A stretch of DNA of 64,000 nt from Stanieria cyanosphaera PCC 7437 (GTDB lineage Bacteria > Cyanobacteriota > Cyanobacteriia > Cyanobacteriales > Xenococcaceae): contig NC_019748.1 in the NCBI RefSeq assembly GCF_000317575.1, positions 1,876,001-1,940,000 of the forward strand. The letters run 5' to 3'. The notes under the pieces are model-generated. The model saw only the letters and a program-made list of their open reading frames with translations. It made no database searches and had not been told where the DNA came from. The position numbers and the translations under genes were made by a program. Each line of letters starts with the position of its first letter. Within the stretch, counting starts at the first letter, position 1. Positions 33,127-56,053 of this stretch are shown one piece after another.

Positions 33127-36100
33127 ATGACAACCAAAATGAAGACAATTGTTGCTGAATATAACCTGATTGAAGTTCTTTACGAAAATAATACCACCCG
33201 TGTTTACCGTGCTTCAAGAGAATCAGAGCCAACTTCGGTAATTATTAAAACTCTTAAAACTGAATATCCTTCCCTAGAGCAAATCGCTCGCTTGAGACAC
33301 GAATATCAAATCCTTCAATCTTTGAACATAGAAGGAGTAGTTAAACCTTTAGCTTTAGAAAATTATCAAAATGGTTTGGCATTAATTCTGTCAGATTTTG
33401 AAGGAGAAACATTAAAAAACGCGATCGCTTTCGGGAATTTTCAATTAGAAAATTTTTTACAAATTGCAATTCAACTTGCTTCGATTTTGGCTCAATTGCA
33501 TCAAAACAATATTATTCATAAAGATATTAAACCTCAAAATATCCTCATTAATCTTCAAAAAAATCAAGTTGAAATTATAGATTTTAGTATTTCATCACGT
33601 CTATCTAAAGAAGAGCAAACGATTAGTAATCCCGATTTATTTGAAGGTTCTCTTGCTTATATGTCACCAGAACAAACTGGCAGGATGAATCGTTCAATTG
33701 ATTATCGAACTGATTTTTATTCTTTAGGAATTACTTTTTATGAAATGCTAACTGGTCAATTACCTTTTCAAGCTACTGATGCTCTGGAATTAATCCATTG
33801 TCACATTGCTAAAACGCCTCTAACGCCAAAAGAAATTAATCGGCAAATTCCCCAAGTAGTTTCAGATCTTGTTATTAAATTATTGAGCAAAACGGCTGAA
33901 GAAAGATATCAAAATGCTTTGGGATTAAAAGCTGATTTGGAAGAGTGTTTAACTAAGTTAAAAAAGACTGGAAAGATCGACACCTTTGTCATTGGAAAAC
34001 TCGATCAATATAGTCAATTTATCATTAGCCAAAAACTTTATGGTCGCGAACAAGAAGTTGCCAATTTAATTAATGCTTTTGAGCGCGTGACGCTTGGCGC
34101 AACTGAAATGATTTTAGTAAGTGGTTATTCAGGAATAGGTAAATCTTCTTTAGTCAATGAAGTTCATAAACCGATTGTTCGTCAGCGAGGATATTTTATC
34201 TCGGGAAAGTTTGACCAATTTAAACGCAATATTCCTTATGCTCCTTTTATTCAAGCTTTTCAAGAATTAATCAGACAATTATTAACAGAAAATCAGGAAA
34301 AAATAGTAATTTGGCAAGCAAAACTTTTAGAAACTCTTGGTACAAACGGTCAGATTATTATTGATGTTATTCCTGAAGTAGAATTGATTATTGGTTCTCA
34401 ACCGCCACTACCCGTCTTAGGAGCGATCGAAACTAAAAATAGATTTAATCGAGTATTTCAACAATTTATTCAAGTTTTTTGTCAAAAAAAGCATCCGTTA
34501 GTACTTTTTTTAGACGATCTGCAATGGGCAGATTCCGCATCGCTAAAATTAATCCAATTACTAATCAGCAACTTAAAAAGCCAGTATTTATTAATAATTG
34601 GTGCGTATCGCAATAACGAAGTTAATGCCACTCATCCTTTAAGCTTGAGTTTAGAAAAAATTCAAAAATCGGGTGTTATTGTCAACAATATTATTCTTCA
34701 GCCTTTGCAAATCGCTCATATCAATCAATTAATCAGTGATACTCTCCACACCGATCCAAAAAAATCACTTTCCTTGGCTGAATTAGTCTTAAAGAAAACT
34801 CAGGGAAATCCCTTTTTTCTAACACAGTTGCTCAAATCTCTTGATCAAGAAAATCTCTTGAAATTTAATTTTGACTCTGGTTGTTGGCAGTGGGACATCG
34901 AAAAACTGAAAGACATTGATATTACTGATAATGTCGTTGATTTAATGATCAAACAAATTCAGAAGCTGTCATCAAAAACGCAAAATGTCTTAAAGTTAGC
35001 AGCTTGTATTGGTAATAAATTCACTTTAGATGTTCTCAGTATCGTTCATCAAAAAACTTTATCAGAAACAGCAACAGATTTATGGGAATCTCTACGGGCT
35101 GGTTTGATTTTACCATTTAATGAATCTTACAAAATACCTTTAGTTATTAGTAGTCAAGCAACAAAGTTTTTAAACGACAACCAAATCCAACCGACTATTA
35201 CTTATAAGTTTTTACATGACCGAGTTCAACAAGCAGCTTATTCCCTAATTGCCGATTCTCAAAAAAAAGCAACTCACCTAAAAATTGGTCGTTTGCTACT
35301 CAAAAATACACCTTTTGAAGAAAGAGAAGAAAATATTTTTACTTTAGTGAATCAATTAAATTATGGGATTGATTTACTAACATCTAATTCCGACAAAATT
35401 GAGCTAGCTGAACTAAATTTTATTGCAGGACGAAAAGCGAAAGCAGCGACAGCTTATGAACCTGCTATCCGTTACTTAAAAGAAGGCTTGGGATTATTAC
35501 CCACCAAAAGCTGGAAAAATCATTATCAACTAACATTGGCACTTTATGAATCAGCCATAGAATCAGCTTACCTCAATGGCGATTTTGAGCAAATGGAGCA
35601 ATGGGCAAAAGTTGCCTTGAAACAGACCAAAACTCCTCTTGACAAAATGAAAGTCTATGAGGTCAAAATTCAAGCCTGCATGGCTCAACTGAGACAAATC
35701 GATGCAGTTAAGATTGGTTTACAAGGATTAGAGTTGCTGGATATTAAATTACCAGAGTCGCCTAGCCTTTTGGCAATCGAGCAAACAATGACCGAAACGG
35801 CAACCAATTTGACTGGAAAAAAAATAGAAGACTTAATTAATTTACCTTTAATGACGGAGGCAGATAAGCTAACAGCGATGAGGATGCTAACCAATATGGG
35901 TTCTCCTACTTATCAAGCTGCGCCTGCATTATTTCCTTTAGTTGTCTGCCAACAAGTTAATTTATCGCTCAGACATGGCAATTCAGTATTTTCCGCTTAT
36001 GGTTATGCTTGTTACGGAGTCATTTTAAACGGAATTGTTGAGGATATTGAATCAGCTTATCAATTTGGTCAGTTAGCTTTAAACTTAATTGACAAATTCA

Positions 36101-39100
36101 AAGCTTTAGAACTTAAAACAAATGTATTTTTTGTCACAGGATCATGTACGATTCATGGAAAAGTTCATGCGAGGGAAACTTTACCCCTCTTACAAGATAG
36201 TTACTCTAGTGGACTAGAAAACGGGCAGTTTGAATATGGTTCTTATGCTGCTGCGCAAAAATGTTTATATTCCTATTTAATTGGTCAAGAATTGCCAAGA
36301 CTAGCACAAGAAATGGCAACAACTAGTCATGCTCTTGCTCAACTTAAACAAAAAAATGCCTTGAGTTGGAATCAAATTTTCCAGCAGTCGGTTCTCAATT
36401 TACTAGAACCTTCACAAAATTCCTGTGGTTTACTGGGTGAAGCTTATCACGAAGAAAGATCATTACCGCTACTTGAAGAAGCCAATGACAGAACCGGACT
36501 CCACTATTTTTATTTAAATAAGTTGATTCTTTGTTATTTGTTTAAAGACTATCAACAAGCTTTGGAGAATGGATGGCAAGCAGAGCATTATTTAGATGGG
36601 GTAAAAGCGTTTTTTGTTGTGCCAGTGTTTCATTTTTATGATTCTTTAGTACGATTAGCTCTCTATCCATCAGCATCACCTTCACAACAGCAACAATTTC
36701 TGAATCAAATCAAAAAGAATCAAGAAAAAATGCGAAAATGGGCAGACCATGCCCCAATGAATTATCAGCATAAGTATGAACTGGTAGAAGCCGAAAAAGC
36801 GCGGGTATTAAGTCAATATTGGCAAGCAATGAATTATTATGATAATGCGATCGCACTAGCTTCAGAACAGGGATATATCCAAGAAGCAGCCTTAGCAGCA
36901 GAACTAGCAGCAGAATTTTATTTTTCCCTTGGTAAAGATAGATTTGCCCAAGAGTATTTAAAGGAAGCTTACTATGGTTACGTACGTTGGGGTGCAACTG
37001 CCAAAGTTAAAAGTATAGAGACACGTTATCCCGATATTTTTGCAAGAATACAACAGTCAGAAAACTCAAGTTCTCCTACACAACCAACTTCTAGTTCTAG
37101 TAGTGGGAATCATTCCCAAACTTTAGATTTGGCGACCGTTATGAAAGCGTATCAGGTACTTTCTAGCGAAATTGTTTTGGATAAACTGTTGACCAAGTTA
37201 ATGCAGATCGTACTCGAAAATGCAGGTGCGGAAACAGGAATTTTACTACTAGAAAAGGCAGGAGAACTACAAATTGAAGCCTTTGGAGCTTTCAACAGCG
37301 ATAATGTCACGATCACAGAAACAAAGCAAGAACAAGAATTAGCTTGCACCTATCCCACCTCGATAGTTAATTACGTTGCTAGAACCCACAAAGCTATTGT
37401 TCTCGATCATGCCTTTAATGAAGAAGCTTTTAGTTTTGATGAGTACATTATTCGACAGCAACCCAAATCGATCCTTTGTCTACCAATTTTGCATCAAGGT
37501 AAACTCACAGGCATCCTTTATTTAGAAAATAATCTGACTGAACGCGCTTTTACTCCAGAACGATTAGAAATTCTTCAATTATTATCTTCTCAAGCAGCGA
37601 TCGCAATTGAAAATGCACGTCTTTATGCCTCTTTAGAAGAAATCAATCTAACTTTGGAAGCCAAAGTACAGGAACGAACGCTTCAATTACAGGAAAAAAA
37701 TCTGCACCTGCAACAGGAAATACGCGATCGCAAACGAGCAGAAGAGGCAGCCGAGGCAGCTAACCAAGCGAAAAGTCAATTTTTGGCGAACATGAGTCAC
37801 GAACTGCGGACTCCTCTTAATGGAATTTTGGGTTATACCCAAATACTCAACAAAGAAAAAACTTTGACCGAGAAACAAAAGAATGGTTTGAATATTATCG
37901 CTCGCTGTGGGAAACACTTACTTACCCTGATCAACGATATCTTAGACCTCTCCAAAATCGAAGCTCAGAAAATGGAACTTCAGCCCAGTGATTTTTATTT
38001 TCGCCAATTTTTGGAAAGTATTATTGAAATTTGTCGCCTTCGTGCCGAACAAAAAGGAATTTCTTTAATTTACAAACCTCTTTCCACTTTTCCTACTTTG
38101 ATTCACGCTGACGAGAAAAGATTAAGGCAAGTTTTGCTTAATTTACTAGCTAATGCAGTGAAATTTACCGACCAAGGCAGTGTCACGTTTAAAGTAGGCA
38201 CTCACGAAGGAAAACTCCGGTTTGAAGTAAAAGATACAGGTATCGGTATTGCAGCAGACCAATTAGAAGCAATCTTTTTGCCCTTTCAACAGGTAGGTGA
38301 ACAAAGTCGCAAGACAGAAGGTACAGGATTGGGATTAGCCATTAGCCGTCAATTAGTGCAAATGATAGGCGGTCAACTACAAGTCAAAAGTACTCTCGGT
38401 GTTGGTAGTGTTTTTTGGTTTGAGCTAGATTTGCCTGAAGTAAATCAAGAAAATAATGACCTGAAAGCTTGGAAACGCAATATTATCGGGTTTCAAGGCT
38501 CAAAACGAAAAGTTTTAGTTATAGACGACCAATGGGAAAATCGCTCTGTCTTGGTTAATTTACTAGAGCCTTTAGGATTTGAAGTGATGGAAGCAACGGA
38601 CGGCTTAGATGGTATTGCCAAAGCACGTAAATTTCAACCCGATCTAATTTTTATGGATTTAATCATGCCGAAACTGAATGGTGTAGAAACTACCCGTCAG
38701 TTAAGAATGTTACCAGAACTTGCCAATGTAGCGATCGTGGCTATTTCCGCCAGCGTAATAAATTTCGATCACAAGCAAAGTTTGGCAGTCGGGTGTGACG
38801 ATTTTCTACCCAAGCCATTTTGGGAAGAAGATCTTTTAGAAAAACTACAAATTTATTTGGGATTAGAATGGATTTATGAGGACGAGGAAAAAGGGACAAA
38901 TAAACTGGTCAAAAACAGAGTAAATAAGCAAGAAATTCTTTCCTCTGATGTCACTACTTTCCCAATTCCTGCAACCGAGGAAATAGCTGCTTTACTAGAT
39001 TTGGCTATGAGAGGTGATCTTAGAGGCATTGTTACGCGAGTCAATCGACTTGAAGAGTTAGATCGGCAATGGATACCATTTGCGACTCATCTTCGTAAAC

Positions 39101-39153
39101 TTGCCAAAGATTTTAAAGGAAAACAAATTCGGGAATTTTTAAAACAATTGTAG
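33127..39153 (+). CDS. Giant Ser/Thr kinase - AAA-like ATPase - GAF - histidine kinase - receiver protein (HstK type)
   Basis: 2008 residues. Domains in order: Hanks-type Ser/Thr kinase (catalytic HKDIKPQN near residue 131; the DFG motif is DFS); an AAA/STAND-like ATPase with Walker [11 protein letters not shown] near 331 and FLDDLQWAD; a long helical TPR-like region; GAF (about 1331-1490); coiled coil; HisKA ([11 protein letters not shown] near 1555); HATPase_c (about 1659-1770); and a receiver (VLVIDDQ near 1794, Asp in [11 protein letters not shown]) with an extra C-terminal helical segment. Such fusions are cyanobacterial and myxobacterial signal integrators (HstK in Anabaena). Input signals are unknown. 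The next kinase gene starts 8 bases later, probably in the same operon. Confidence 0.92.
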
Positions 39154-39161
39154 AGGCATGA

Positions 39162-41519
39162 ATGAGTACTGTTAGTTCTGACCAAAGTGTCATTTTAATT
39201 GTTGATGATACTCCCACTAATTTAGAAATATTACTCGATTTGTTAGAAAATTCTGGCTTCAAGGTTGTAGTGTCAGAGGAAGGAGAAAGTGCGATTGAGA
39301 TGGCGGAGTATGCTCCACCAGACTTGATTTTACTAGATATACTCATGCCTGAAATGGACGGTTTTGAAACTTGCCGTCGCTTGAAAATGAAGCCCACTAC
39401 TAAAGATATTCCGATTATCTTTATGACTGCCCTCAGCGATCGCGTTGATCGGGTTAAAGGATTGAATCTGGGAGCGGTTGACTATATTACCAAGCCATTA
39501 GAGCATGAAGAAGTTTTAGCCCGTGTCAACATTCACCTGCGTCTCCAAAACCTAACTAAACGATTAACAGAACAAAATGCTCACCTGCAACAAGAAATTG
39601 AAAAACGCAAACAAGCACAAGCAGAAAAGGAGCAAGCTTTTCAGGCACTACAACAAAGCGAAGCTCGATTTAGAAGATTAGTTGAATCTAATATTATTGG
39701 TATTATTTGTTCACATCTAAACGGCAAAATTACAGAAGCCAACGATGCCTTTCTCAAAATAGTAGGCTATGATCGCAATGCTCTCCAAATGGGTTCTTTA
39801 TCTTGGCACGAAATGACCCCATCAGAATACCAACATTTAGACCAAGCTGCGATCGCTCAATTACTTAAATCTGGAGTTTGTAATCCTTTTGAGAAGGAAT
39901 TTATCTGCCAAAATGGTACTCGTGTACCTGTTATGCTCGGAAGTGCGCTTTTGGAAGGCTCTCAAACTGCTGTCAGTTTTGTTCTTGATTTGACCGAACA
40001 TAAGCAAGCACAACAAAAAATCTTTGAACAAGCTGCGCTACTTGATATTACAACCGATGCAATTCTGGTGCGGGATTTGGACAACAAAATTCGATTTTGG
40101 AATCAAGGAGCAGAACGTTTATACGGATGGAAAGCCTCCGAAGCGATCGGCAAGAATGCTAACGAGCTTTTGTACCGAGAACAAGCAATTATCAACCAAC
40201 TTCCCGACATTCAAGCAAGTTTAACTGAGAATGGTTCTTGGCAGGATGAACTGCACCAAGTTACTAAATCTAATCAAGAAATCATCGTTTCTAGTCGCTG
40301 GACACTAGTGCGTGACGATGAAGGACAACCAAAATCACTCCTCGTTGTTAATACTGATATCACAGAAAAGAAACAACTCGAAATGCAGTTTTTCCGCGCT
40401 CAACGCTTGGAAAGTCTCGGTACTCTTGCTAGTGGTATTGCCCACGATTTCAACAATATCCTCACTCCAATGCTGGCAGTCTCTCAACTGCTACCGTTAA
40501 AATTGCCCGATCTTGACGAGCAAAGTAAGAATTTACTGAAAATACTAGAAACCAGTGCTAGACGTGGGGCTGCTTTAGTTAAACAAATTCTTTCATTTGC
40601 CCGCGAAGAAGAAGGTAGAAAACATCGAGTCCAAGTCAGACATCTATTGTCGGAAGTGGCGCAAATCGCTCAACAAACATTTCCAAAATCTATCGAAGTG
40701 ATCAAAGATGTTCCCAGCCAAAACCTTTGGACAGTTTGGGCAGATGCGACTCAACTGCATCAAGTCTTGATGAATCTCTGTATTAATGCTCGTGATGCCA
40801 TGCCTAATGGCGGTACTTTAACTATTGCTGCTGAAAATATTTTCCTTGACGAACACTATGCCAAAATTGATCTTGATGCTCAAGTTGGATCATATATTGT
40901 CATTAGTATTGTCGATACGGGAACAGGTATTCGACCAGAAATATTAGAAAGAATTTTTGAGCCTTTTTTTACCACCAAAGAACTAGGACAAGGAACAGGA
41001 CTTGGTTTATCAACGGTATTGGGTATTATCAAAAGTCATGGTGGTTTTCTAAAAGTATATAGCGAGCTAGGAGAAGGCACTCAATTTAAAGTATATCTAC
41101 CAGCAAGCGAAGATCCTCAAATAAAGCAAACAGAAAACTTTAACTTACCAAAAGGACATGGAGAGTTGATTCTTGTGGTAGATGATGAACTTGCGATTCG
41201 GGAAATCACTAAAACCTTGCTCAAAAAATATAATTATAATGTTATCACCGCTAAGGATGGCATTGAAGCGATCGCTTTTTACGCTCAACATCAAGATCAA
41301 ATCGCTGTCGTATTAATGGATATGATGATGCCAGCTATGGATGGTTCGAGTACTATCCGTGCTTTGCGCAAAATTAATCCTCAGCTTAAAATTATTGCTA
41401 CCAGTGGATTAGCATCAAATGAGAAGTTAACTGAAAATGCAGACGTAAGAATTACTACTTTTTTGCCTAAACCCTACACTGCCAAAGATTTATTAGAAAG
41501 TCTGGAAAAGTTAATTTAA
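39162..41519 (+). CDS. REC-PAS-PAS-HisKA-HATPase-REC hybrid histidine kinase
   Basis: 785 residues. An N-terminal receiver (ILIVDDTPTNLEILL; Asp in LILLDILMPEMDG) is followed by coiled coil, two PAS domains (about 165-285 and 290-405), HisKA with the phospho-acceptor in GIAHDFNNILTPM near 425, HATPase_c (about 515-650) and a C-terminal receiver (ILVVDDELAIREI near 670). Having receivers at both ends suggests it receives phosphate from another kinase, plausibly the giant kinase whose gene ends 8 bases upstream, and passes it on (inference). Confidence 0.93.
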   Translation: MSTVSSDQSVILIVDDTPTNLEILLDLLENSGFKVVVSEEGESAIEMAEYAPPDLILLDILMPEMDGFETCRRLKMKPTTKDIPIIFMTALSDRVDRVKGLNLGAVDYITKPLEHEEVLARVNIHLRLQNLTKRLTEQNAHLQQEIEKRKQAQAEKEQAFQALQQSEARFRRLVESNIIGIICSHLNGKITEANDAFLKIVGYDRNALQMGSLSWHEMTPSEYQHLDQAAIAQLLKSGVCNPFEKEFICQNGTRVPVMLGSALLEGSQTAVSFVLDLTEHKQAQQKIFEQAALLDITTDAILVRDLDNKIRFWNQGAERLYGWKASEAIGKNANELLYREQAIINQLPDIQASLTENGSWQDELHQVTKSNQEIIVSSRWTLVRDDEGQPKSLLVVNTDITEKKQLEMQFFRAQRLESLGTLASGIAHDFNNILTPMLAVSQLLPLKLPDLDEQSKNLLKILETSARRGAALVKQILSFAREEEGRKHRVQVRHLLSEVAQIAQQTFPKSIEVIKDVPSQNLWTVWADATQLHQVLMNLCINARDAMPNGGTLTIAAENIFLDEHYAKIDLDAQVGSYIVISIVDTGTGIRPEILERIFEPFFTTKELGQGTGLGLSTVLGIIKSHGGFLKVYSELGEGTQFKVYLPASEDPQIKQTENFNLPKGHGELILVVDDELAIREITKTLLKKYNYNVITAKDGIEAIAFYAQHQDQIAVVLMDMMMPAMDGSSTIRALRKINPQLKIIATSGLASNEKLTENADVRITTFLPKPYTAKDLLESLEKLI

Positions 41520-47021: not shown

Positions 47022-47136
47022 ATAAATTGATTTTAGGAATAACACTTTATGATTATTTCCTAAGCTTAATCAATGAACAAAAACCAAGGTATCTACTTTA
47101 TTTCATCTTACTTTGGTTTTTAACAAATAATTGATA

Positions 47137-48264
47137 ATGGAAATCAAAAAAATTTTATTTATTTTCTTATTTAGTTTAGCTGTATTTATTGCTTGTAGCG
47201 ATCGCTCTCTTAACTCACAAAGTTTTCAACAAATAGCAGCAGACAATAGTAATTTTCAATACATTGGTAGAGTTGACCGACAAAATCCTCAAGCTCCAAT
47301 TTTTAGTTTTCCTGCTACAGCTTGTCTGTTTAATTTTGAAGGTACAAGTTTAAAACTTAAATTAGCTGATGATAATTGGGGAGAAAGTAATTATATTGGT
47401 GTTTATCTTGATAATAATCCCAAACCGATTATTATTCATTTAAATAGTGGCAACGAACCCCAAGTTTATGAAGTAGCGAAAAAATTAGAAGACAAAAATC
47501 ATCAAGCTTTAATAGTTAAAAGAAATGATTATATTACAGGGGAATTCTCTTTTCATGGCATTCTGATTGATAACAATAAAAACTTACTTTCACCACCACA
47601 ACTAACTAATCGTAAAATTGAAGTTTATGGAGATTCAATTTCAGCCGGTTCAACAGTAGAATACGAGCAAACAGGTACTCAAGATCCATCAGGAGATACA
47701 AATCATTTATCTAATAGTTATCTTTCCTTTGGAGCAATGTTAGCTAGAGATTATCAAGCTCAATTGAGTTTAGTTGCTCAAGCAGGAATAGCTTTAGTAG
47801 ATGGTTATGGTTTTTGGCATGATGGTATTGGCATGGAAGCAGTTTACGATCAAATAAAACCTCTTAAAGATGCACCGAGTTGGGATTTTAATCAATATAT
47901 TCCTAATTTAGTTATAGTTGCTCTGGGACAAAATGATGCCTCAAGCATCGATCTCAACTCTGATCTAACCAGTACAGAATGGAAACAGCATTATAAAAAC
48001 TTTGTGGCTAATCTTCGTAGTAAATATCCTAATGCTTATTTTATTTGTATGTTTCCTAATATGTATCACGACCGCGCTTGGGATAATTATTTAAACGAAG
48101 CAGTAACAGAATACAAAAATGAACAACAAGACAATAAAATTCATTCTTTAATTACAGAACAAGTTACGCCCGGTCATCCTAGAGTAAGCGAACAACAATT
48201 AATGGCAGATGCTCTTAAAAATTTAATTGATACCACCTTAGTTCAAGATGGTTTTAGTTGGTAA
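47137..48264 (+). CDS. Exported SGNH/CE2-type carbohydrate esterase
   Basis: 375 residues from ATG 47137. A lipobox-like LAVFIACSD indicates an exported lipoprotein. An N-terminal beta-sandwich (about 40-150) is followed by the SGNH hydrolase core: catalytic Ser in VYGDSISAGS, Gly/Asn in VALGQNDASS and His in TPGHPRVSE. A sandwich before an SGNH domain is the layout of carbohydrate esterase family 2, deacetylases acting on polysaccharides (family knowledge). The polysaccharide substrate is unknown. The Pel-like cluster begins about 2 kb away on the other strand, which is suggestive only. Confidence 0.85.
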   Translation: MEIKKILFIFLFSLAVFIACSDRSLNSQSFQQIAADNSNFQYIGRVDRQNPQAPIFSFPATACLFNFEGTSLKLKLADDNWGESNYIGVYLDNNPKPIIIHLNSGNEPQVYEVAKKLEDKNHQALIVKRNDYITGEFSFHGILIDNNKNLLSPPQLTNRKIEVYGDSISAGSTVEYEQTGTQDPSGDTNHLSNSYLSFGAMLARDYQAQLSLVAQAGIALVDGYGFWHDGIGMEAVYDQIKPLKDAPSWDFNQYIPNLVIVALGQNDASSIDLNSDLTSTEWKQHYKNFVANLRSKYPNAYFICMFPNMYHDRAWDNYLNEAVTEYKNEQQDNKIHSLITEQVTPGHPRVSEQQLMADALKNLIDTTLVQDGFSW

Positions 48265-48422: not shown

Positions 48423-49829
48423 TTATGGTTGACTGTTGACTGCCGACTGATTGATACTTTCTCCTTTGACAACTTCTAAGGCAGTAATTCCATCTCCTTG
48501 AAAACCAAAGTACCAAAGAGAAGCAGCAGCTTCAGCGCGAGTTACTGGTTTTTTTGGTTGAAATAAAGTTGTGTAACCAAACACACGCTTCATATTTGAG
48601 TTGTCACCATTTTGAAAATCGGCAAATAACGCTTGCAATGCTTGAGGTGAGATATTTGCTGTATCTTGAAAACCCCAACTTTGCTTAATTGCATCAATTG
48701 AAGCAGTAGGTAAATTTTTTCTTAAATCTAGAGGTACTTTCCAAGTTAATAAATCTTCTCTGGTTAAAGGTGCATCGGGTTGAAATAATAATTTGCTACT
48801 ATTATCGGTTAGCATGGAAGGGATTAATCCTGCTTCTGCCAATCCTTGAATAATCTCAAAATCAGGGTCATTAACGCTAATATCTTGAAAAGCTGGACGA
48901 TCGCTTTTAGTTGCTAAATGAATTTTTTCTCCAGCAGCGTTGCCATGAAATTGATTGTTAGCTTCTACTAACCAGCGAGCAAAATCTCTACGAGTAATAG
49001 GTTCATTCGGTGCAAATTTATTGGCTTCAACTTTGCCTTCTTTAGAGTAAGCTGTTAGTATACCTAATTTTGCCAAATCCTCTATATAAGGACGTAGTTG
49101 TTCTGAAGTTTGATCGAGATCGCTAAAATAAACTGCTGATGCTGTAGTTTCTATATTAGGTTCTAGATCAGTTAAATTTTCAGATGAGTTAGTTGTTTCT
49201 GAAGTAGTTAATTGAGGTAAATCTTCAATCGGTTGATACGCGATCGCAAATTGATTGGAAATTAAATTATCTTTATTATCCGTGGTCGGTTGACTAAGAG
49301 AAACTGTTACTTTTAAGTTTTCCCTACTAGCAGTTAAAGCATTATTTCCTTGTTGAACATTCTCAGGAAAAGATTTGATAATTTTCCAGCCATTGGCTTT
49401 GAGTTGTTGTTGATAATAACTAGCTATTTGAGTCAAAGAGTCTGGTGACTCCCAGTTTGTTTTGCCTTTTTCTGTAGTTAAACCTGGTTGTACTTTGGTT
49501 AATTGAGCTTTGGGATAAAGAGGAATTTCAATGGGAAAATCGTCCGGTAAACTGATAGTCTGTTCCGAAGTAGGATTAGAAGAATTAATTGCAGAGTTAG
49601 AAGAGCTAGAATTTCCAATCGCAGTAGTAGCTGAAGTTGCTATTTGTTCAGGAACTTGACTACTAGCTAAAGTTTTTTTAAGTTCAGGATCGGCAGCTAA
49701 CCAATTTTCAATCGTCGCACCATTACTACAAGCAGAAACCAAAAAGAGCAAACTGCTAGCGACCACGCAGTGCCTCGCTTTCGGTGAGATCGCCCAGCGA
49801 TAAAAGTTGTGTGGTTGATTTGAAAACAC
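48423..49829 (-). CDS. SLH-domain lipoprotein
   Basis: 468 residues. The lipobox LFLVSACSNG places Cys34 as the lipid anchor. A middle domain (about 95-200, FPIEIPLYPKAQ, YYQQQLKANGWKI) is followed by three S-layer-homology-like repeats (VYFSDLD, FQDISVNDPDF, WGFQDT) that include TRRDFARWL and TRAEAAASLWY. SLH domains bind cell-wall polymers (family knowledge), so it probably links the outer membrane to peptidoglycan. Such proteins are common in cyanobacterial envelopes. No operon. Confidence 0.87.
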   Translation of the reverse strand: MFSNQPHNFYRWAISPKARHCVVASSLLFLVSACSNGATIENWLAADPELKKTLASSQVPEQIATSATTAIGNSSSSNSAINSSNPTSEQTISLPDDFPIEIPLYPKAQLTKVQPGLTTEKGKTNWESPDSLTQIASYYQQQLKANGWKIIKSFPENVQQGNNALTASRENLKVTVSLSQPTTDNKDNLISNQFAIAYQPIEDLPQLTTSETTNSSENLTDLEPNIETTASAVYFSDLDQTSEQLRPYIEDLAKLGILTAYSKEGKVEANKFAPNEPITRRDFARWLVEANNQFHGNAAGEKIHLATKSDRPAFQDISVNDPDFEIIQGLAEAGLIPSMLTDNSSKLLFQPDAPLTREDLLTWKVPLDLRKNLPTASIDAIKQSWGFQDTANISPQALQALFADFQNGDNSNMKRVFGYTTLFQPKKPVTRAEAAASLWYFGFQGDGITALEVVKGESINQSAVNSQP

Positions 49830-50293: not shown

Positions 50294-51115
50294 TCACTTT
50301 GAAGACTCGTTTAAAGACCGAATATACTCTATTTCTTCTTGCCAATAGGAGGGTAAACTGTTCCAAGGATCACCATCATCACTAGTTGGACTATCATCGG
50401 TAACATAGATATAACCAATCTTACAAGCGATCGCGTGGTCAATATAACTTTTCATCGTAGTAGCATCAGCAACAGAATGAATTAAACTAGCAAAATACTT
50501 ACTTTGATATTTATTGACATAAGATTTAGGTTTGTATCCTTTCCACGCTTGAGAATAATCTTCAAAAATTACTGCTAGATCTGCTGCGGGACGATTTAAA
50601 TAACTTTCATCAGTATCAGTACCAGGGTTAATTATTACTTGGTCTAAATTAGTTTTAGTTTTAATGTAGTTATAAAGCTCCTGATAATAATTAATTTGTT
50701 TGATATCGCTCGCGCTTTCATCAAGAAAAATTCCGTCCACATCATAATAGTTGTTATAAAGATCGATATCTTGTTTGACTTCTTCAATCGAGCGATCGCC
50801 GTATTGGGTATAGACATAGCCTAAGATAGTAATATTTGATTGTCTTAAATCTTTTAATCCTCTTTGATAGTCTTGGTTTGGTGGTTTACCGTCAGGGCCG
50901 TTATTAGGATTAATGATTGCCATAATAGGCACTCGCTGTGCTGCTGAGGCAACATCCGACCATACATAAGTTTTAGGTTCATACCAATTAGGATAAATAT
51001 AAAGAGGAAGCAGAATTTTAAGCGAATTACCCACCACTGCTTGTGATTGACAAGATAACATGATACAAACAACTAAAATTGCTGTTAAAAATCTGCCAAG
51101 GTTCAATACTTTCAT
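50294..51115 (-). CDS. Spherulin-4-like glycoside hydrolase, exported
   Basis: 273 residues. A signal peptide (FLTAILVVCIMLSC) leads into a TIM-barrel-like domain with KILLPLYIYPNW, VPIMAIINPNNGP, ITILGYVYTQYG, VDGIFLDESASD and VIINPGTDT, the pattern of the spherulation-specific family 4 (Spherulin4). Related fungal enzymes (Sph3, GH135) cut galactosaminogalactan, and the hydrolase domain of PelA cuts the similar Pel polymer (family knowledge). It is the last gene of the minus-strand cluster with PelF- and PelG-like proteins, so it is probably a periplasmic or surface enzyme that trims or releases the polymer made there (inference). Confidence 0.85.
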   Translation of the reverse strand: MKVLNLGRFLTAILVVCIMLSCQSQAVVGNSLKILLPLYIYPNWYEPKTYVWSDVASAAQRVPIMAIINPNNGPDGKPPNQDYQRGLKDLRQSNITILGYVYTQYGDRSIEEVKQDIDLYNNYYDVDGIFLDESASDIKQINYYQELYNYIKTKTNLDQVIINPGTDTDESYLNRPAADLAVIFEDYSQAWKGYKPKSYVNKYQSKYFASLIHSVADATTMKSYIDHAIACKIGYIYVTDDSPTSDDGDPWNSLPSYWQEEIEYIRSLNESSK

Positions 51116-51120
51116 TTATG

Positions 51121-51157
51121 TAATTACTGATAACTGATAACTGCTCACTGGTCACTG
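51121..51157. repeat. TGATAACTGATAACTG spacer repeat inside the cluster
   Basis: Tandem CTGATAA units plus CACTGGTCACTG between two genes of the cluster. Dispersed spacer repeat. Confidence 0.55.
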
Positions 51158-52699
51158 CTAATACCCTCCCAGATAGTAAGCATAATCTGGTTTTTGCATT
51201 GCTTGTAACACTTTGCGTCGAGAAAGCAGCATAAATACTAAAGAACCTACAACTAAACCAAGCACAGCCCATTCAGGAGCGATCGCATTAGCTGCAAGAT
51301 ACCCTATTACAAAATTAACTATTAGACTGGGAAAAATTGATGCGATCGCAGAAGAGGCAAGATTGAGATTAAACAATACCACTGCATTTAATAAACCTAG
51401 AACTAATAATAGATATCCTAGACAACCTATTAAAGTTAAAACAGGATTAGTTGATGCCCAAGGTTTTGGAGTTGGTATGCCGATGATAGAAGCTACTAAT
51501 AAACCAAAAAATAGTAAAATTACACCTATTAAGAGTAAATAACGCAAATTTAATTGCTTAGATAACGTACTCATGTTTTCCAATTTTGCTATCTGAGCTT
51601 GTTTGTACCAATAACGAATTAAGCGATAAGCTAAATATTCACTCAAAGGTACGGCTAATAAAAAATTAAGCAAAGCCAAATCCATTGCTCGTTGATAGGC
51701 AGAGTCAATCGCAAAAATTAACCCAGAAGCAGCATCTACTGCCCAACCAGCTACCAAACGATCTGCAAAAATAAAGCAAAAATAAGTAATTCCATAACCA
51801 AAAAAGGAAGCGAGTAGATAGATAGTAGCACTGAGGTTGGGTAATTCGATTTTTCCTTCAATAGGATGAGCAAGTTGTCGTTTTCTCAACAAAATTACTA
51901 CGGCGATCGCTAGAAAAATTAAAGTCACAAAGATAGCTACTATTTGAGCTTCCAATGCACCGAGGTTTGCTTTGAACCTAACCATCCAAAACAAGACAGT
52001 TAAACCGATCAAAGTTAAAGGTGTTCCCCAAATCGATAACAGAGATAGGATTGATAACAACATCCACAGTAAGCTGAGAACGAGGTAATAAAAAGCCCCT
52101 AAAACCAAATATTGATCGGGAAATAAATTTCGATAAAAGCCAAACCACAAACTCATTACAGCTAGGACAAAGCTAGTCAGCATTCCCAAACTCAACAAAG
52201 AAACACAGGCTTTTCTTGCTTGTTGTGGAAAACCCAACCCGAAATAAAATTCTCCTCTACGAGCGATCGCTTGAACGAATCCACCACTGGTAATTAAACT
52301 AGCTAAAGTTGCTAGGGTAAATAAAGCAGCTAGTTGAGGTGGGATAAATTTCCAACTATCACTAGGTTCTAAATTACTTAAAATTAACAAAGAAATTAAA
52401 GGAATAGCATAGACAAAACTACGGGAAAATTGCTCGACAAAGGCATATAATTCGGCAATAATTGTTTTTTTCCAGTTAGTATCTTGCGGTGTTTCTAGAG
52501 TTAATAATACAGGATTATTCTGTTGATAAATATATTCTCCAATTGCCAAAACATCAGCAAAACCAAACTCTTCAGCGATAATGCGATCGGTATAACCTAA
52601 AGATTCTATAATTGCCATAGTTTGCCAACGATCTACTAGTCTAGGACTAACTTGTTCTACTTGAGCAATTAGTTTTAAAAGTTTTTGTTCGTTGGACAT
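51158..52699 (-). CDS. PelG-like polytopic membrane protein
   Basis: 513 residues with about 12 membrane helices after a soluble N-terminal region of about 90 residues. The size and layout resemble PelG, a Wzx/MOP-type inner-membrane protein that works with PelF in Pel polysaccharide synthesis and export (family knowledge). I do not see a motif that proves PelG, so the call leans on its place 61 bases after the PelF-type gene. The other neighbour is the spherulin-4-like hydrolase. Alternative: an unrelated membrane protein recruited to the cluster. Confidence 0.6.
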   Translation of the reverse strand: MSNEQKLLKLIAQVEQVSPRLVDRWQTMAIIESLGYTDRIIAEEFGFADVLAIGEYIYQQNNPVLLTLETPQDTNWKKTIIAELYAFVEQFSRSFVYAIPLISLLILSNLEPSDSWKFIPPQLAALFTLATLASLITSGGFVQAIARRGEFYFGLGFPQQARKACVSLLSLGMLTSFVLAVMSLWFGFYRNLFPDQYLVLGAFYYLVLSLLWMLLSILSLLSIWGTPLTLIGLTVLFWMVRFKANLGALEAQIVAIFVTLIFLAIAVVILLRKRQLAHPIEGKIELPNLSATIYLLASFFGYGITYFCFIFADRLVAGWAVDAASGLIFAIDSAYQRAMDLALLNFLLAVPLSEYLAYRLIRYWYKQAQIAKLENMSTLSKQLNLRYLLLIGVILLFFGLLVASIIGIPTPKPWASTNPVLTLIGCLGYLLLVLGLLNAVVLFNLNLASSAIASIFPSLIVNFVIGYLAANAIAPEWAVLGLVVGSLVFMLLSRRKVLQAMQKPDYAYYLGGY

Positions 52700-52760
52700 G
52701 GATTTAAGTAAAAAGTAAAAAGTAATTACTAATAGGTTTTAATTTTTAAACCATGAGCAA

Positions 52761-54227
52761 TTACTTTAATAATTTGTAATAGGTATTTAAATGTTCTGAT
52801 AAAAAAGTCTTCTGGGTGAATAATTTTAAGGAACGTTCCAAAGCTCTTTTCCCATATTGCGTCCGCTCTTCTTGGGGAAGTGAAAGTAATTGAAGTATGG
52901 CTTGAGCCATCTGTTCTGGTTCTCCTGCACGCACCATTAATCCTGTATCTGCGATCGCTTCTCGGACTCCTCCGACATCAGTAGCGACAATTGTTGCGCC
53001 AGAAAGCATGGCTTCGATGATGGCAAAAGGAAACCCTTCGGAAATACTAGACATGGCTACAACATCGGCTTCACTGTATGCCCGCCAGGGTTCACTGGTA
53101 AAACCAGCAAAATTAATCGTTTTTTCTAAATCATGTTGCTCTACTACTGCTTGACATTGAGCGAAATAGTTTTCATCAGAGGCTTTTCCGTAAAACCGAA
53201 ATTCAACATCGGGAATCTGATCTCTGACAATTACCGCAGCTTTAATTAAGTCTAATTGACCTTTTAAGGGAAAGATTAAGCCCATATTCATTACTTGAGG
53301 GCGTTCTTTCTTGACAGGTGGTGTAGGATGAAATTTATTTGGATCTGCCCCGTTATAAATTACCTTGATTTTTTCTGGTGGTACTCCCCACCAACGTTCC
53401 CAACGGGCATTATACTCACAGACTGGAGCAACTAAATCGGCAAAATGAAAGTTAACTTTCACTACTGCCCCCATTAAGCGATACAAAAACTTGCGGACAA
53501 ATAAGGAAGGAATATTTTGATTAAGGTTTAAATATTGCTCTCGAATATTAATGCCATGTTCGGTTAGTAAATAAGGCGTTCCGCGCTGTAATTTGGCAAT
53601 CACACAGGGTAAACCACAAAATGCTGCTGCTGAAGAGTGAGTGATGTCTGTTTCTGGTACGGGTACGTGAATGGCAATTAAAAATCGATATAACAATCGC
53701 ATTGCTTCAGTTACTTCAGCTAGAGTTACTTCCACAAGAGAATCTTCTTGCTGACAATAATCCCAAACTAGATGCTTAAAAGTTGACCACATCCAAACCG
53801 AATTCATGGTTTTGTGATAGTCGTAATCTAGAAAATATTGGTGAATTCCCAACAGCAGTTTACCTAATGATTCTGCTTCTACTTCACTCAGTAATACCAT
53901 CCGTAAAAAAGATTCAAACAGAGGAATAAATTTAGTTTGAATTAAACTAACGGTTACTTGCTGTTTACTTTTAAGAGCCAGAGAAAAAGGCGATCGCCAG
54001 GTGTATTCTACTGGATCATCTGTTCCCCACAATGGTATTTTGATAACTTCTAAAACGTTGGGTGATAATTCATAATTGATTTTTTGATAAGGATTAGCCA
54101 CAATCGCTAATAGTTTAAAATCTATTTCTGGTAACTGTTGAGTTAACACATGACACCAGGTACTGACACCACCTTTAGCAAAAGGATAAGTTCCTTCTGT
54201 TGTCAGCAGTACACAAGGTCTAGCCAA
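52761..54227 (-). CDS. pelF: PelF-type GT4 glycosyltransferase
   Basis: 488 residues. The N-terminus LLTTEGTYPFAKGGVSTWCH is the PelF signature, as is the TEHGINIREQYL segment. The C-terminal GT4 nucleotide-sugar part has MNMGLIFPLKGQLDLIKAA and EGFPFAIIEAMLSG, with the catalytic Glu pair. PelF polymerises the Pel exopolysaccharide, rich in GalNAc and galactosamine, from UDP-sugar in the cytosol (known from Pseudomonas). It starts 2 bases after the receiver-HlyD gene, so they are tightly coupled. The sugar specificity of this cyanobacterial enzyme is not known. Confidence 0.86.
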   Translation of the reverse strand: MARPCVLLTTEGTYPFAKGGVSTWCHVLTQQLPEIDFKLLAIVANPYQKINYELSPNVLEVIKIPLWGTDDPVEYTWRSPFSLALKSKQQVTVSLIQTKFIPLFESFLRMVLLSEVEAESLGKLLLGIHQYFLDYDYHKTMNSVWMWSTFKHLVWDYCQQEDSLVEVTLAEVTEAMRLLYRFLIAIHVPVPETDITHSSAAAFCGLPCVIAKLQRGTPYLLTEHGINIREQYLNLNQNIPSLFVRKFLYRLMGAVVKVNFHFADLVAPVCEYNARWERWWGVPPEKIKVIYNGADPNKFHPTPPVKKERPQVMNMGLIFPLKGQLDLIKAAVIVRDQIPDVEFRFYGKASDENYFAQCQAVVEQHDLEKTINFAGFTSEPWRAYSEADVVAMSSISEGFPFAIIEAMLSGATIVATDVGGVREAIADTGLMVRAGEPEQMAQAILQLLSLPQEERTQYGKRALERSLKLFTQKTFLSEHLNTYYKLLK

Positions 54228-54229
54228 GT

Positions 54230-56053
54230 TTACTTACCTCCCATAACTGTCTGGGGCAAAAATTGTACTTGAGCTAATTGACTAATAATTAAAGAGTTAG
54301 TCGGGTTGGCAAATTCTATTTCAACTAAATAGTCCAATTTTTCGGTAGGTAAAGGATTAACAGTCGCAATCTTACCCTCAAATTTTTGGGCTGTCACTCC
54401 CGAACCTATTTGAATTACTGCTGGTTGATTAGGACTCAAGACATTAATTAAACGAGAGTTTACTGCCACTTCAATTTTGAGTTGTTCTAATCTAGCTAAC
54501 CCAATTACTGCATTACCACCATAAATTTGATCGCCAATGGTAACTGGTATTTCTGTTATTATTCCTGCTTCAGTTGCGGTAATGACTTGATTGATTTGAG
54601 GAATTTGATATTGATTAAGTTGGGCTGCTTGCTGTTTTAACAGTTCTAGTTTTTCTGTGGCTTGTTGATATTCAAGCTGAGCCTTTTGCTTCTGTTTTTC
54701 TAATTGTGCGATCGCATCTTGTTGTTCTTGAATCGCTAATTTTTCTTGTAGTTGAGATAATTCTGTTTGACTTTGTTCTAATTTAGTATTGGCATTCGCT
54801 GCTGCGATCGCTGTATCATAATCTGCCTTAGCTATTTCTAATTCTACCTGCGCTTGTTCTAATTGCTCTTGAGAAATTGCTCCCTGTTGATTAAGAGTAT
54901 CTAAACGATTAAAACGTGCTTTGGCTCGTTCATACACAGCTTTAGTTCTCGGTACTGAATCTTGTCGTTGACGCAGAGGTAGTTTTTCTGCCTGACTTTG
55001 AGCTAGAGAAACCTGTAAATTTGCCTCAGCAATTTTCGCTCGTAAAGGAGCTAAATCATACTTAAGACGATTAATCTTTTGTTCTAAATCAAAAATTTGT
55101 TGTTGAGCAATCTGTTGTTGCTGAAATACTGCTTGTTGTTGCTGTTTGGTTGATTGCTGTTCTTGAATAATTTGTTTTTGCTCATTTTCTGCTGCTAAAT
55201 TCTTGAGAGTAAGTAAAGTTTGACCAACTTCTACCTTCTCACCAACCTGTACGGAAATCTGATCTACCACACCAGGATTAATTGCTGCAATCTTAAAAGT
55301 CTTGGCTGGTTTTACCTTACCTGTAAACTGAGTCTGGGCAATGGTAGCAGATTGCTCCTCATAACTAAGCACGGGTAGGGGTTTTCTCAGCCATTGACGC
55401 ATGACATAAATTCCAGTTGTGAGACTCAAAGCAACTATCAACCAAGCTAAGGTTTGCTTGAGACTATTTTGTGTTGTCCAAGGTTGAGACTCAATCGCTA
55501 TAGGATTAGGAGAGGTAAGTACAATCTCTTCTTTGGTTAACGAAGTAGAAGTAAGTTTAGCTTTTCTCTGAAGAAGTACTTGAGAATGACTATCTAAGTT
55601 GTTTTGTTTGTGCTCAAGAGAGTCAACAGTTGATTTTTTAACCACAGGAAGTAATTTTTCAAATAATCCAGCCCCCATGTGGGTAAAACCTTTGTTAACA
55701 AATCTAATCGCTTGTTCTATCTCTTCGTCAGACGATCCCTTCAGTAAATATCCTGTCGCTCCAGCAGACATCGATTCTGTCACATATTTATCTTCATCAT
55801 GACTACTAAGCACTAAAATTTTCGTCTCAGGACACTCTTCGGCAATTAGTTTTGTAGTGACCAAACCATTTAGTTGTGGCATTTCCAGATCGAGTAAAAC
55901 GATATCAGGATGTAGCTCTTTAGCAAAAGCGATCGCATCTAGGCCATTGTTGGCAAGACCAATTAATTTAAAATCTGAAATTGAATTAACTAAACATTCA
56001 AGTCTAGCACGTACGAATTTTTGATCATCTACAATTAAAATTTTAATCATCAC
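54230..56053 (-). CDS. Receiver domain fused to membrane-anchored HlyD-type adaptor
   Basis: 607 residues. Residues 1-125 form a NarL-type receiver (KILIVDDQKFVRARLE; acceptor Asp55 in VLLDLEMPQLNG; Lys105 in GYLLKGSS). A Gln/Ser-rich linker (about 130-195) leads to one membrane helix (about 200-217, TLAWLIVALSLTTGIYVM). Beyond it comes an HlyD/RND-adaptor region: barrel-sandwich hybrid (INPGVVDQISVQVGEKVEVGQTLLTLKN), long coiled-coil hairpin (about 285-490), second half-sandwich (TATEAGIITEIPVTIGDQIY) and beta-barrel. The usual DNA-binding domain of NarL proteins is replaced. The order predicts a cytosolic receiver and a periplasmic adaptor. It is the first gene of the PelF/PelG-like cluster. 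Confidence 0.9.
   Translation of the reverse strand: MMIKILIVDDQKFVRARLECLVNSISDFKLIGLANNGLDAIAFAKELHPDIVLLDLEMPQLNGLVTTKLIAEECPETKILVLSSHDEDKYVTESMSAGATGYLLKGSSDEEIEQAIRFVNKGFTHMGAGLFEKLLPVVKKSTVDSLEHKQNNLDSHSQVLLQRKAKLTSTSLTKEEIVLTSPNPIAIESQPWTTQNSLKQTLAWLIVALSLTTGIYVMRQWLRKPLPVLSYEEQSATIAQTQFTGKVKPAKTFKIAAINPGVVDQISVQVGEKVEVGQTLLTLKNLAAENEQKQIIQEQQSTKQQQQAVFQQQQIAQQQIFDLEQKINRLKYDLAPLRAKIAEANLQVSLAQSQAEKLPLRQRQDSVPRTKAVYERAKARFNRLDTLNQQGAISQEQLEQAQVELEIAKADYDTAIAAANANTKLEQSQTELSQLQEKLAIQEQQDAIAQLEKQKQKAQLEYQQATEKLELLKQQAAQLNQYQIPQINQVITATEAGIITEIPVTIGDQIYGGNAVIGLARLEQLKIEVAVNSRLINVLSPNQPAVIQIGSGVTAQKFEGKIATVNPLPTEKLDYLVEIEFANPTNSLIISQLAQVQFLPQTVMGGK

Follow-up and report, generated by a model that had tools for sequence, protein, structure and literature searches.

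We analysed a stretch of 64,000 nucleotides, C1:1876001-1940000 of the 5.54-Mb genome of Stanieria cyanosphaera PCC 7437 (handle G000), hereafter called the window, which contains a four-gene cluster with features of Pel-type exopolysaccharide systems. A sequence-only reading of the window had described a receiver–HlyD fusion, a PelF-type GT4 glycosyltransferase, a 12-helix PelG-like protein and a spherulin-4-type exported glycosidase. The listing of open reading frames (ORFs) confirms the four genes, all on the minus strand and separated by gaps of 2, 61 and 42 bases, and Pfam bears out three of the identities; the fourth is upheld in part.

54230..56053, minus strand: receiver–HlyD fusion (hereafter the adaptor), 607 amino acids; Response_reg 2.6e-24 and HlyD_D23 2.2e-12 (Pfam)
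52761..54227, minus strand: PelF-type GT4 glycosyltransferase, 488 amino acids; DUF3492 1.3e-43 and Glycos_transf_1 (Pfam)
51158..52699, minus strand: exporter with a predicted MOP fold, 513 amino acids; no Pfam match above cut-off
50294..51115, minus strand: exported spherulin-4 (GH135-type) hydrolase, 273 amino acids; Spherulin4 PF12138 5.7e-53, 180 bits (Pfam)

The glycosyltransferase gene starts with TTG, and its product exceeds the cut-off of the NCBIfam PelF model NF038011 (145.9 bits against 100) and carries, at SEGFPFAIIEAM, an E-x7-E, a motif of GT4 enzymes. Among the PelF loci that a genome-contig scan returned, the nearest records of all perhaps being excluded from it, the closest is that of Waterburya agarophytonicola KI4 (84% identical); on plasmids, the best full-length matches, at 28-35% identity, come from Deinococcus, Streptomyces, Thermus and Kocuria. 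A PelF tree of 25 rows splits six canonical Pel proteins from 12 cyanobacterial and seven galactosaminogalactan (GAG)-type proteins with a support of 100/100; because the tree is unrooted and has long branches flagged, this split does not prove the cyanobacterial and Deinococcus/Streptomyces proteins to be sisters. For the comparison of gene content we used 40 genome handles, two of which (G018 and G450) are identical, with the same coordinates, leaving 39 distinct genomes. Twenty-seven are relatives from the window's family, not chosen by gene content, and 12 were chosen for an exporter or PelF already found; the sample is thus not random and, since its members are mutually related, the counts below are not independent. 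The PelF N-terminal domain (PF11997) is present in 17 of the 40 handles, that is, in 16 of the 39 distinct genomes.

An AlphaFold2 model of the exporter, built from nine orthologues (mean predicted local distance difference test score, pLDDT, 76), predicts a small N-terminal helical domain of ~70 residues followed by a 12-helix MOP fold. Foldseek retrieves a MATE protein at E 1.2e-5, and VIA-align superposes the model on MATE1 (Z 23.7, root-mean-square deviation (rmsd) 4.5, 410 residues aligned), WzxE (Z 21.3, rmsd 4.1, 374 aligned) and MurJ (Z 18.2, rmsd 4.3, 385 aligned). Since the model matches transporters of the MOP superfamily, it does not fall outside the MOP/PelG fold, and the 12-helix part of the earlier description stands. 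Homology to PelG does not: the PelG model PF16933 has no match in the exporter or in the whole window genome, and hhalign against four canonical PelG proteins gives a probability of 0.5%, with no significant homology. The likeness is therefore demonstrated only at the level of the superfamily fold, and the exporter is PelG-like by position and predicted fold, not by sequence. Across 386 genomes of the phylum, PF16933 gave four matches, of which the three that passed the cut-off bear no closer label than "same phylum". The N-terminal domain is common to the Deinococcus, Streptomyces and Thermus counterparts (hhalign probability 96.2%, E 2.3e-9, columns 6-159), and BLASTP detects those of Deinococcus (1e-5) and Streptomyces (8e-7). 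The exporter profile yielded a single irrelevant match among PDB sequences (E 0.33), and a search of viral contigs gave one pattern match and no encoded relative.

The spherulin-4 protein has a hydrophobic N-terminus, and its residues D132, E133 and E185 are invariant in all nine aligned sequences and coincide with the motifs FDE and FE in the solved spherulin-4 chains 5d6t/5c5g. A spherulin-4 match is found in all 16 PelF-positive genomes; the match in G001 reads one stop, and the ORF listed there is intact (270 amino acids). Calothrix brevissima NIES-22 (G454) has a second match within an 810-residue open frame (C1:6945291-6945998).

How might the cluster be connected to the outside of the cell, and how might it be controlled? 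The receiver of the window adaptor is CheY-like, with D9, D10, D55, S83 and K105 all present. Its HlyD portion, a periplasmic adaptor of the RND type, exceeds the cut-off for HlyD_D23 and lies just below that of the NCBIfam model RND_mfp (89.8 bits, cut-off 94.9). The ORF is listed from a GTG, the next codon being ATG, and a hydrophobic stretch at about residues 200-220 lies below the threshold of a simple hydropathy scan. We aligned 17 adaptors (15 from PelF-positive genomes, one from Tolypothrix and one from the remnant in G084); the same scan detects one membrane segment in 14 of them, the proteins of the window, G001 and G453 falling below the threshold. The adaptor gene immediately precedes pelF in 15 of the 16 PelF-positive genomes, the contig ending at that point in G096; where the spacing was measured (14 loci), six loci have 2 bp between the two genes. 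PelD, which the sequence-only reading had reported absent, was indeed not found in any of the 16 genomes (PF16963, E 0.01), while the positive control matched in 3/3 pel plasmids. PelE, PelB and PelC were not recognised among the scanned neighbours, no genome-wide profile search having been made for them. A literature search on receiver–HlyD fusions found no account of them in the portions of text it returned. Phospho-gating of the adaptor is plausible.

The exporter gene is present in all 16 PelF-positive genomes: beside pelF in ten, ~10-16 kb away in four (G451, G452, G454 and G174) and on another contig in two (G004 and G018). Its absence from Nostocales was a first impression that we discarded, the gene lying ~10-16 kb off. 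In the window's family, five of the 27 genomes searched have PelF together with the exporter and the other 22 have neither (Fisher p 1.2e-5, uncorrected for kinship). The full four-gene order at one place occurs in 3/16 genomes (G000, G001 and G020, the window genome included), and parts of the system lie on different contigs in several of the 16; linkage of the genes is conserved in related genomes, as the sequence-only reading required. Of the 23 PelF-negative genomes, 20 show no match to the exporter, spherulin-4 or the two further proteins described below, a giant protein and a membrane protein of ~600 residues. The other three hold pieces: G084 (L021) an adaptor, a 42-residue piece of the exporter and a spherulin-4 gene with an inner stop; G015 a spherulin-4 gene in two pieces (fragment site C7:3759893-3760263); and G024 (L067, L097) the giant protein and a ~600-residue gene with two inner stops. 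Such a pattern would be expected if the module were lost whole.

Neighbourhood scans revealed a giant protein that recurs near the cluster, 1175-2011 residues long where unbroken, with a weak polysaccharide-deacetylase match. Queried with the 930 N-terminal residues of the G001 copy, it is found in 17 of 39 genomes, namely all 16 PelF-positive ones and G024, and the C-terminus carries RTX repeats in all ten copies scanned. RTX repeats are a usual mark of type I secretion. As the main alternative, the adaptor could be a type I secretion conduit for this protein, with the polymer leaving by another route, and the RTX ends of the co-inherited protein would fit, as would an ABC exporter gene (606 amino acids) adjoining the adaptor in G056 and G078. 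In G096, too, an incomplete ABC-like ORF stands ~5 kb from the exporter gene. We consider this unlikely, however, as the ABC protein used as a query found no relative beside the adaptor in the other fetched loci, the sole transport-adaptor model among the best 25 of 94 NCBIfam rows is RND-type, and the adaptor gene keeps closely to pelF and, in the window genome, lies ~480 kb from the giant gene. There, the giant gene and that of the ~600-residue protein stand side by side at C1:2415.5-2421.7 kb. The sequence-only reading had called the cluster self-contained and minimal; with these two partners in 16/16 PelF-positive genomes and encoded elsewhere in the window genome, that description does not hold.

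What is the giant protein? Its core spans approximately residues 185-880 of the G001 copy, and the core of the G000 copy was modelled from 15 sequences of 14 genomes (pLDDT 81, predicted template modelling score 0.84). The top VIA-align row is Pseudomonas thermotolerans PelA (9cgy: Z 19.5, rmsd 5.1, 538 aligned, model residues 5-679 on PelA 270-926), and the next longest alignment among the rows listed is to human N-deacetylase/N-sulfotransferase 1 (9f6z: 405 aligned, Z 13.9, rmsd 9.2). In the accessible text of its structural description, PelA contains, besides the hydrolase, a mixed alpha/beta domain (293-498), a deacetylase domain and beta-rich regions (PMC12022489). Given these positions, the span of PelA that aligns with the predicted giant core is essentially PelA minus its hydrolase. 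Moreover, R259-x-D261-x-D263, H337-x3-H341 and H492 (core numbering) are invariant in 15/15 sequences, and the two aspartates and three histidines share MAFFT columns with three canonical PelA proteins, one of which has D513, D515, H585, H589 and H749. The same source, as far as accessible, gives the active-site pattern of PaPelA as D528-x-D530, H600-x3-H604 and the acid histidine H761, and PelA H526, at the position of R259, as a proposed substitute for the usual base-activating arginine (PMC12022489). The motif spacings of PelA and giant core are close (70 versus 74 and 157 versus 151), and the 132 of Agd3 (D378 to H510, from the part of PMC7229062 available) fits worse. With a separate spherulin-4 hydrolase and a PelA-like giant core, the two activities of PelA appear to be split between proteins. 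An identity with Agd3, a deacetylase made up of CBM87 and CE18, was considered and dropped: the Agd3 models PF25115/PF25116 have no match at E up to 10 in three giant proteins, and hhalign against Agd3-type proteins is not significant (9.5%, E 0.0034 around H-x3-H). Against PDB sequences, the core profile gave five matches, the best weak and CE4-type around HSYTH, and the matches of two whole giant proteins were confined to the RTX region. Calothrix brevissima NIES-22 (G454, L055) encodes two giant PelA-like proteins in tandem.

The ~600-residue protein, a polytopic membrane protein, has the same distribution (17 of 39 genomes: 16/16 PelF-positive and G024). From reading alone it had given the impression of being glycosyltransferase C-like, which we set aside. 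Its occurrence together with a MOP-fold exporter invites another explanation, a Wzx-like lipid-linked route, in which PelF would build on a lipid carrier, the exporter would flip the product and the ~600-residue protein, of no known family, would polymerise or transfer it outside the membrane. The predicted exporter fold is about as near WzxE as MATE proteins, and the exporter has no demonstrated sequence link to PelG. In characterised systems, however, PelF is the polymerase, according to the accessible parts of two reports (PMC13254593, PMC12345266), and the minority of neighbours that were scanned yielded no recognisable gene of the Wzy or Wza/Wzc type; we regard this route as distinctly unlikely. 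A GalE-type epimerase homologue is present in the fetched loci of 12 of the 16 PelF-positive genomes, that of G001 scoring 475 bits against the GalE model (cut-off 262). In a metagenome-assembled genome (MAG) of the Leptolyngbyaceae, a GlmS-like gene (glutamine amidotransferase and SIS domains) adjoins the cluster (L028:7965-9866), consistent with a supply of amino sugars.

Taken together, we think it fairly probable that these genes form a real, conserved but patchy two-locus Pel/GAG-type exopolysaccharide system of cyanobacteria, in which the adaptor stands in for PelB/PelC. The product is probably a sticky, galactosamine-rich slime that the system makes, exports and trims. From the gene content, conserved linkage, co-inheritance, predicted folds and conserved catalytic residues, we infer its substrate, export route and phospho-control as follows. 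First, PelF would polymerise an amino-sugar chain in the cytoplasm, probably from uridine diphosphate N-acetylgalactosamine (GalNAc) supplied by the GalE-type epimerase. Second, the MOP-fold protein would pass the chain across the inner membrane, and the RND-type HlyD adaptor, probably with a putative TolC-type channel, would replace PelB/PelC and carry it out of the cell. Outside, the exported spherulin-4 enzyme would cut the polymer, and the giant RTX protein, with its PelA-like core, would remove N-acetyl groups. Finally, a histidine kinase may adjust export or assembly by way of the receiver, which would lie at the adaptor's cytoplasmic side.

Several observations weigh against this two-locus reading. 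Besides the missing PelG homology of the exporter, the giant core has as its second VIA-align row a GH42 enzyme with nearly the same score (Z 19.2 over 262 residues), so that it is the aligned length of the model, not Z, that singles out PelA; the top 50 Foldseek rows are mostly GH42, other glycoside-hydrolase or ThuA-like proteins over ~260 columns, PelA not being among them. The profile comparison of the core with PelA is not significant (hhalign probability 0.8%), nor is the one with Agd3-type proteins given above, and the PelA link therefore rests on the predicted fold and the active site. For the ~600-residue protein, Pfam and NCBIfam offer nothing better than E 6.6 and the PDB no sequence match, and the epimerase was not seen in the fetched loci of G000 (both), G056, G078 and G096. 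The co-inheritance of the adaptor is known from neighbourhoods only; its contact with the polymer is conjectural, and the HlyD–TolC model for cellulose export is itself without experimental validation, as stated in the accessible part of a review (PMC12430437).

The same side of the balance holds the broken genes. The exporter is frame-broken in four of the 16 PelF-positive genomes (G078, L020; G174, L057; G452, L061; G455, L028), the giant protein in G321 and G455 and PelF in G455, a metagenome assembly; in G321 the ~600-residue gene is partial. In the three exporter breaks examined, whose positions differ, an A or T tract six or seven bases long occurs no more than 60 bases away, such tracts being common in AT-rich DNA; the breaks may stem from sequencing error, phase variation or decay. 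Together with the remnants in G084, G015 and G024 and the patchy distribution (of 386 phylum genomes sampled, 3 have PelF relatives, the window's included, a count that may be too low since four candidates were scored per genome), they could mean that the cluster is what gene loss has left of an ordinary pel operon, a fragment either in decay or borrowed. Yet the exporter is intact in 12 of 16 genomes, the aligned exporters are 36-85% identical to that of the window, the same non-canonical partners are found in 16/16, and PelF splits with the Deinococcus/Streptomyces group and not with the Pel group in the unrooted tree; we hold this account to be highly improbable.

The control input must likewise be weighed. 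A receiver is present in 14 of the 17 aligned adaptors, in some by alignment only, and is missing in G321, G453 and G455; that of G062 is below the Pfam cut-off. The equivalent of D55, the phospho-Asp, is kept in 13 of the 14 receivers, G004 having N, while G451 and G452 have a changed acidic pair. A phospho-input is thus common but dispensable, and the proposal of the sequence-only reading that a phospho-relay replaces cyclic di-GMP (c-di-GMP) remains conjectural. Only tentatively do we suggest a phosphorelay-gated exporter, in which the receiver fused to the adaptor would switch a Pel/GAG-type conduit directly and post-translationally, with no c-di-GMP receptor of the PelD type; the lineage would join synthesis and hydrolysis of the GAG type to a giant PelA-like deacetylase with an RTX tail, as a possible intermediate between Pel and fungal GAG.

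Further features of the window lie around the cluster.

47131..48264, plus strand: CE2-type GDSL esterase (Pfam), near the cluster on the opposite strand; membership of the system uncertain
48423-49829, minus strand: SLH-domain protein, on the same strand and directly downstream of the cluster
33127-41519, plus strand: two neighbouring large signalling proteins, ~13 kb from the receiver–HlyD gene

A second CE2-type GDSL esterase adjoins the exporter gene in G056 (L019:6733-9264, plus strand), and these enzymes are possibly a second polymer esterase. The first signalling protein (2008 amino acids) combines Ser/Thr kinase, AAA, GAF, histidine kinase and receiver portions, and the second is a PAS hybrid histidine kinase of 785 amino acids. 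A scan for promoters and terminators was no better than shuffled sequences (26 promoter-like sites versus a mean of 23.4; 3 terminator-like sites versus 4.0).

How does the cyanobacterial system compare with those already known? The result listings of the open-licence literature contained no account of photosynthetic cyanobacteria with a system of the Pel or GAG type. With the Pel systems (pelABCDEFG of Pseudomonas; pelDE-ADA-FG of Bacillus cereus and Streptococcus) it shares PelF, a 12-helix MOP-fold exporter, a hydrolase of the type known for GalNAc polymers and a predicted PelA-like deacetylase. The Pel product is an alpha-1,4-GalNAc polymer, partially deacetylated. The hydrolase domain of PelA belongs to GH166 and lies in one chain with the CE21 deacetylase, whereas in the cyanobacteria PelA appears to be divided between two proteins, a spherulin-4 hydrolase and a deacetylase with an RTX tail; they also have an HlyD adaptor within the cluster, an exporter for which the sequence tests gave no homology to PelG, and no PelD found. 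In six canonical contrast loci with an annotated PelG, PelD is annotated in three and a GAF protein in two. Judged by PelG and PelD, the cyanobacterial system is outside the Pel family, but most likely works like Pel.

The fungal GAG cluster consists of uge3, gtb3, agd3, sph3 and ega3 in the accessible text of PMC4817252, and the cyanobacterial genes resemble it in combining epimerase, GT4, deacetylase and spherulin-4 functions. They differ in that the deacetylase is PelA-like and not Agd3-like and that they include an additional HlyD adaptor, which in most cases bears a receiver. GH114 was not seen among the neighbours scanned, no genome-wide search having been made. In bacterial agd3 operons, a glycosyltransferase is accompanied by GH114, a multi-spanning membrane protein and, in some cases, spherulin-4, and cyanobacteria are not named in the part of that paper available to us (Bamford et al. 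2020, PMC7229062). Seven plasmid loci of Deinococcus, Streptomyces, Kocuria and Thermus encode PelF followed by an unnamed ORF of 420-516 residues (exporter homology was tested in three of the seven), with varied sets of epimerase-type SDR, Agd3-type, spherulin-4 and GH114 genes, some of them identified from the deposited annotation alone. The Agd3 models match all five Deinococcus, Thermus, Kocuria and Streptomyces proteins compared, over the cut-off in L106, L108 and L112 and weakly in L107 and L114.

For the outward export step, a comparison can be made with the cyanobacterial cellulose system XcsA–XcsB–TolC, reportedly first described by Maeda in 2018. The two differ in synthase and polymer, and XcsA carries a PilZ domain where the present system has a receiver on the adaptor. 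The likeness lies in an HlyD-like adaptor, proposed to connect the inner-membrane synthase with the TolC channel, and in a hydrolase gene alongside in some species, as set out in the accessible part of the review (PMC12430437). By this analogy, XcsAB–TolC would be the nearest precedent, itself an unproven model, and the compact gene set described here would make adaptor-mediated polysaccharide export in cyanobacteria testable. If our reading is correct, a third architecture would stand beside Pel and GAG, with the activities of PelA split between proteins and an HlyD adaptor, usually bearing a receiver itself, where PelB and PelC would be.

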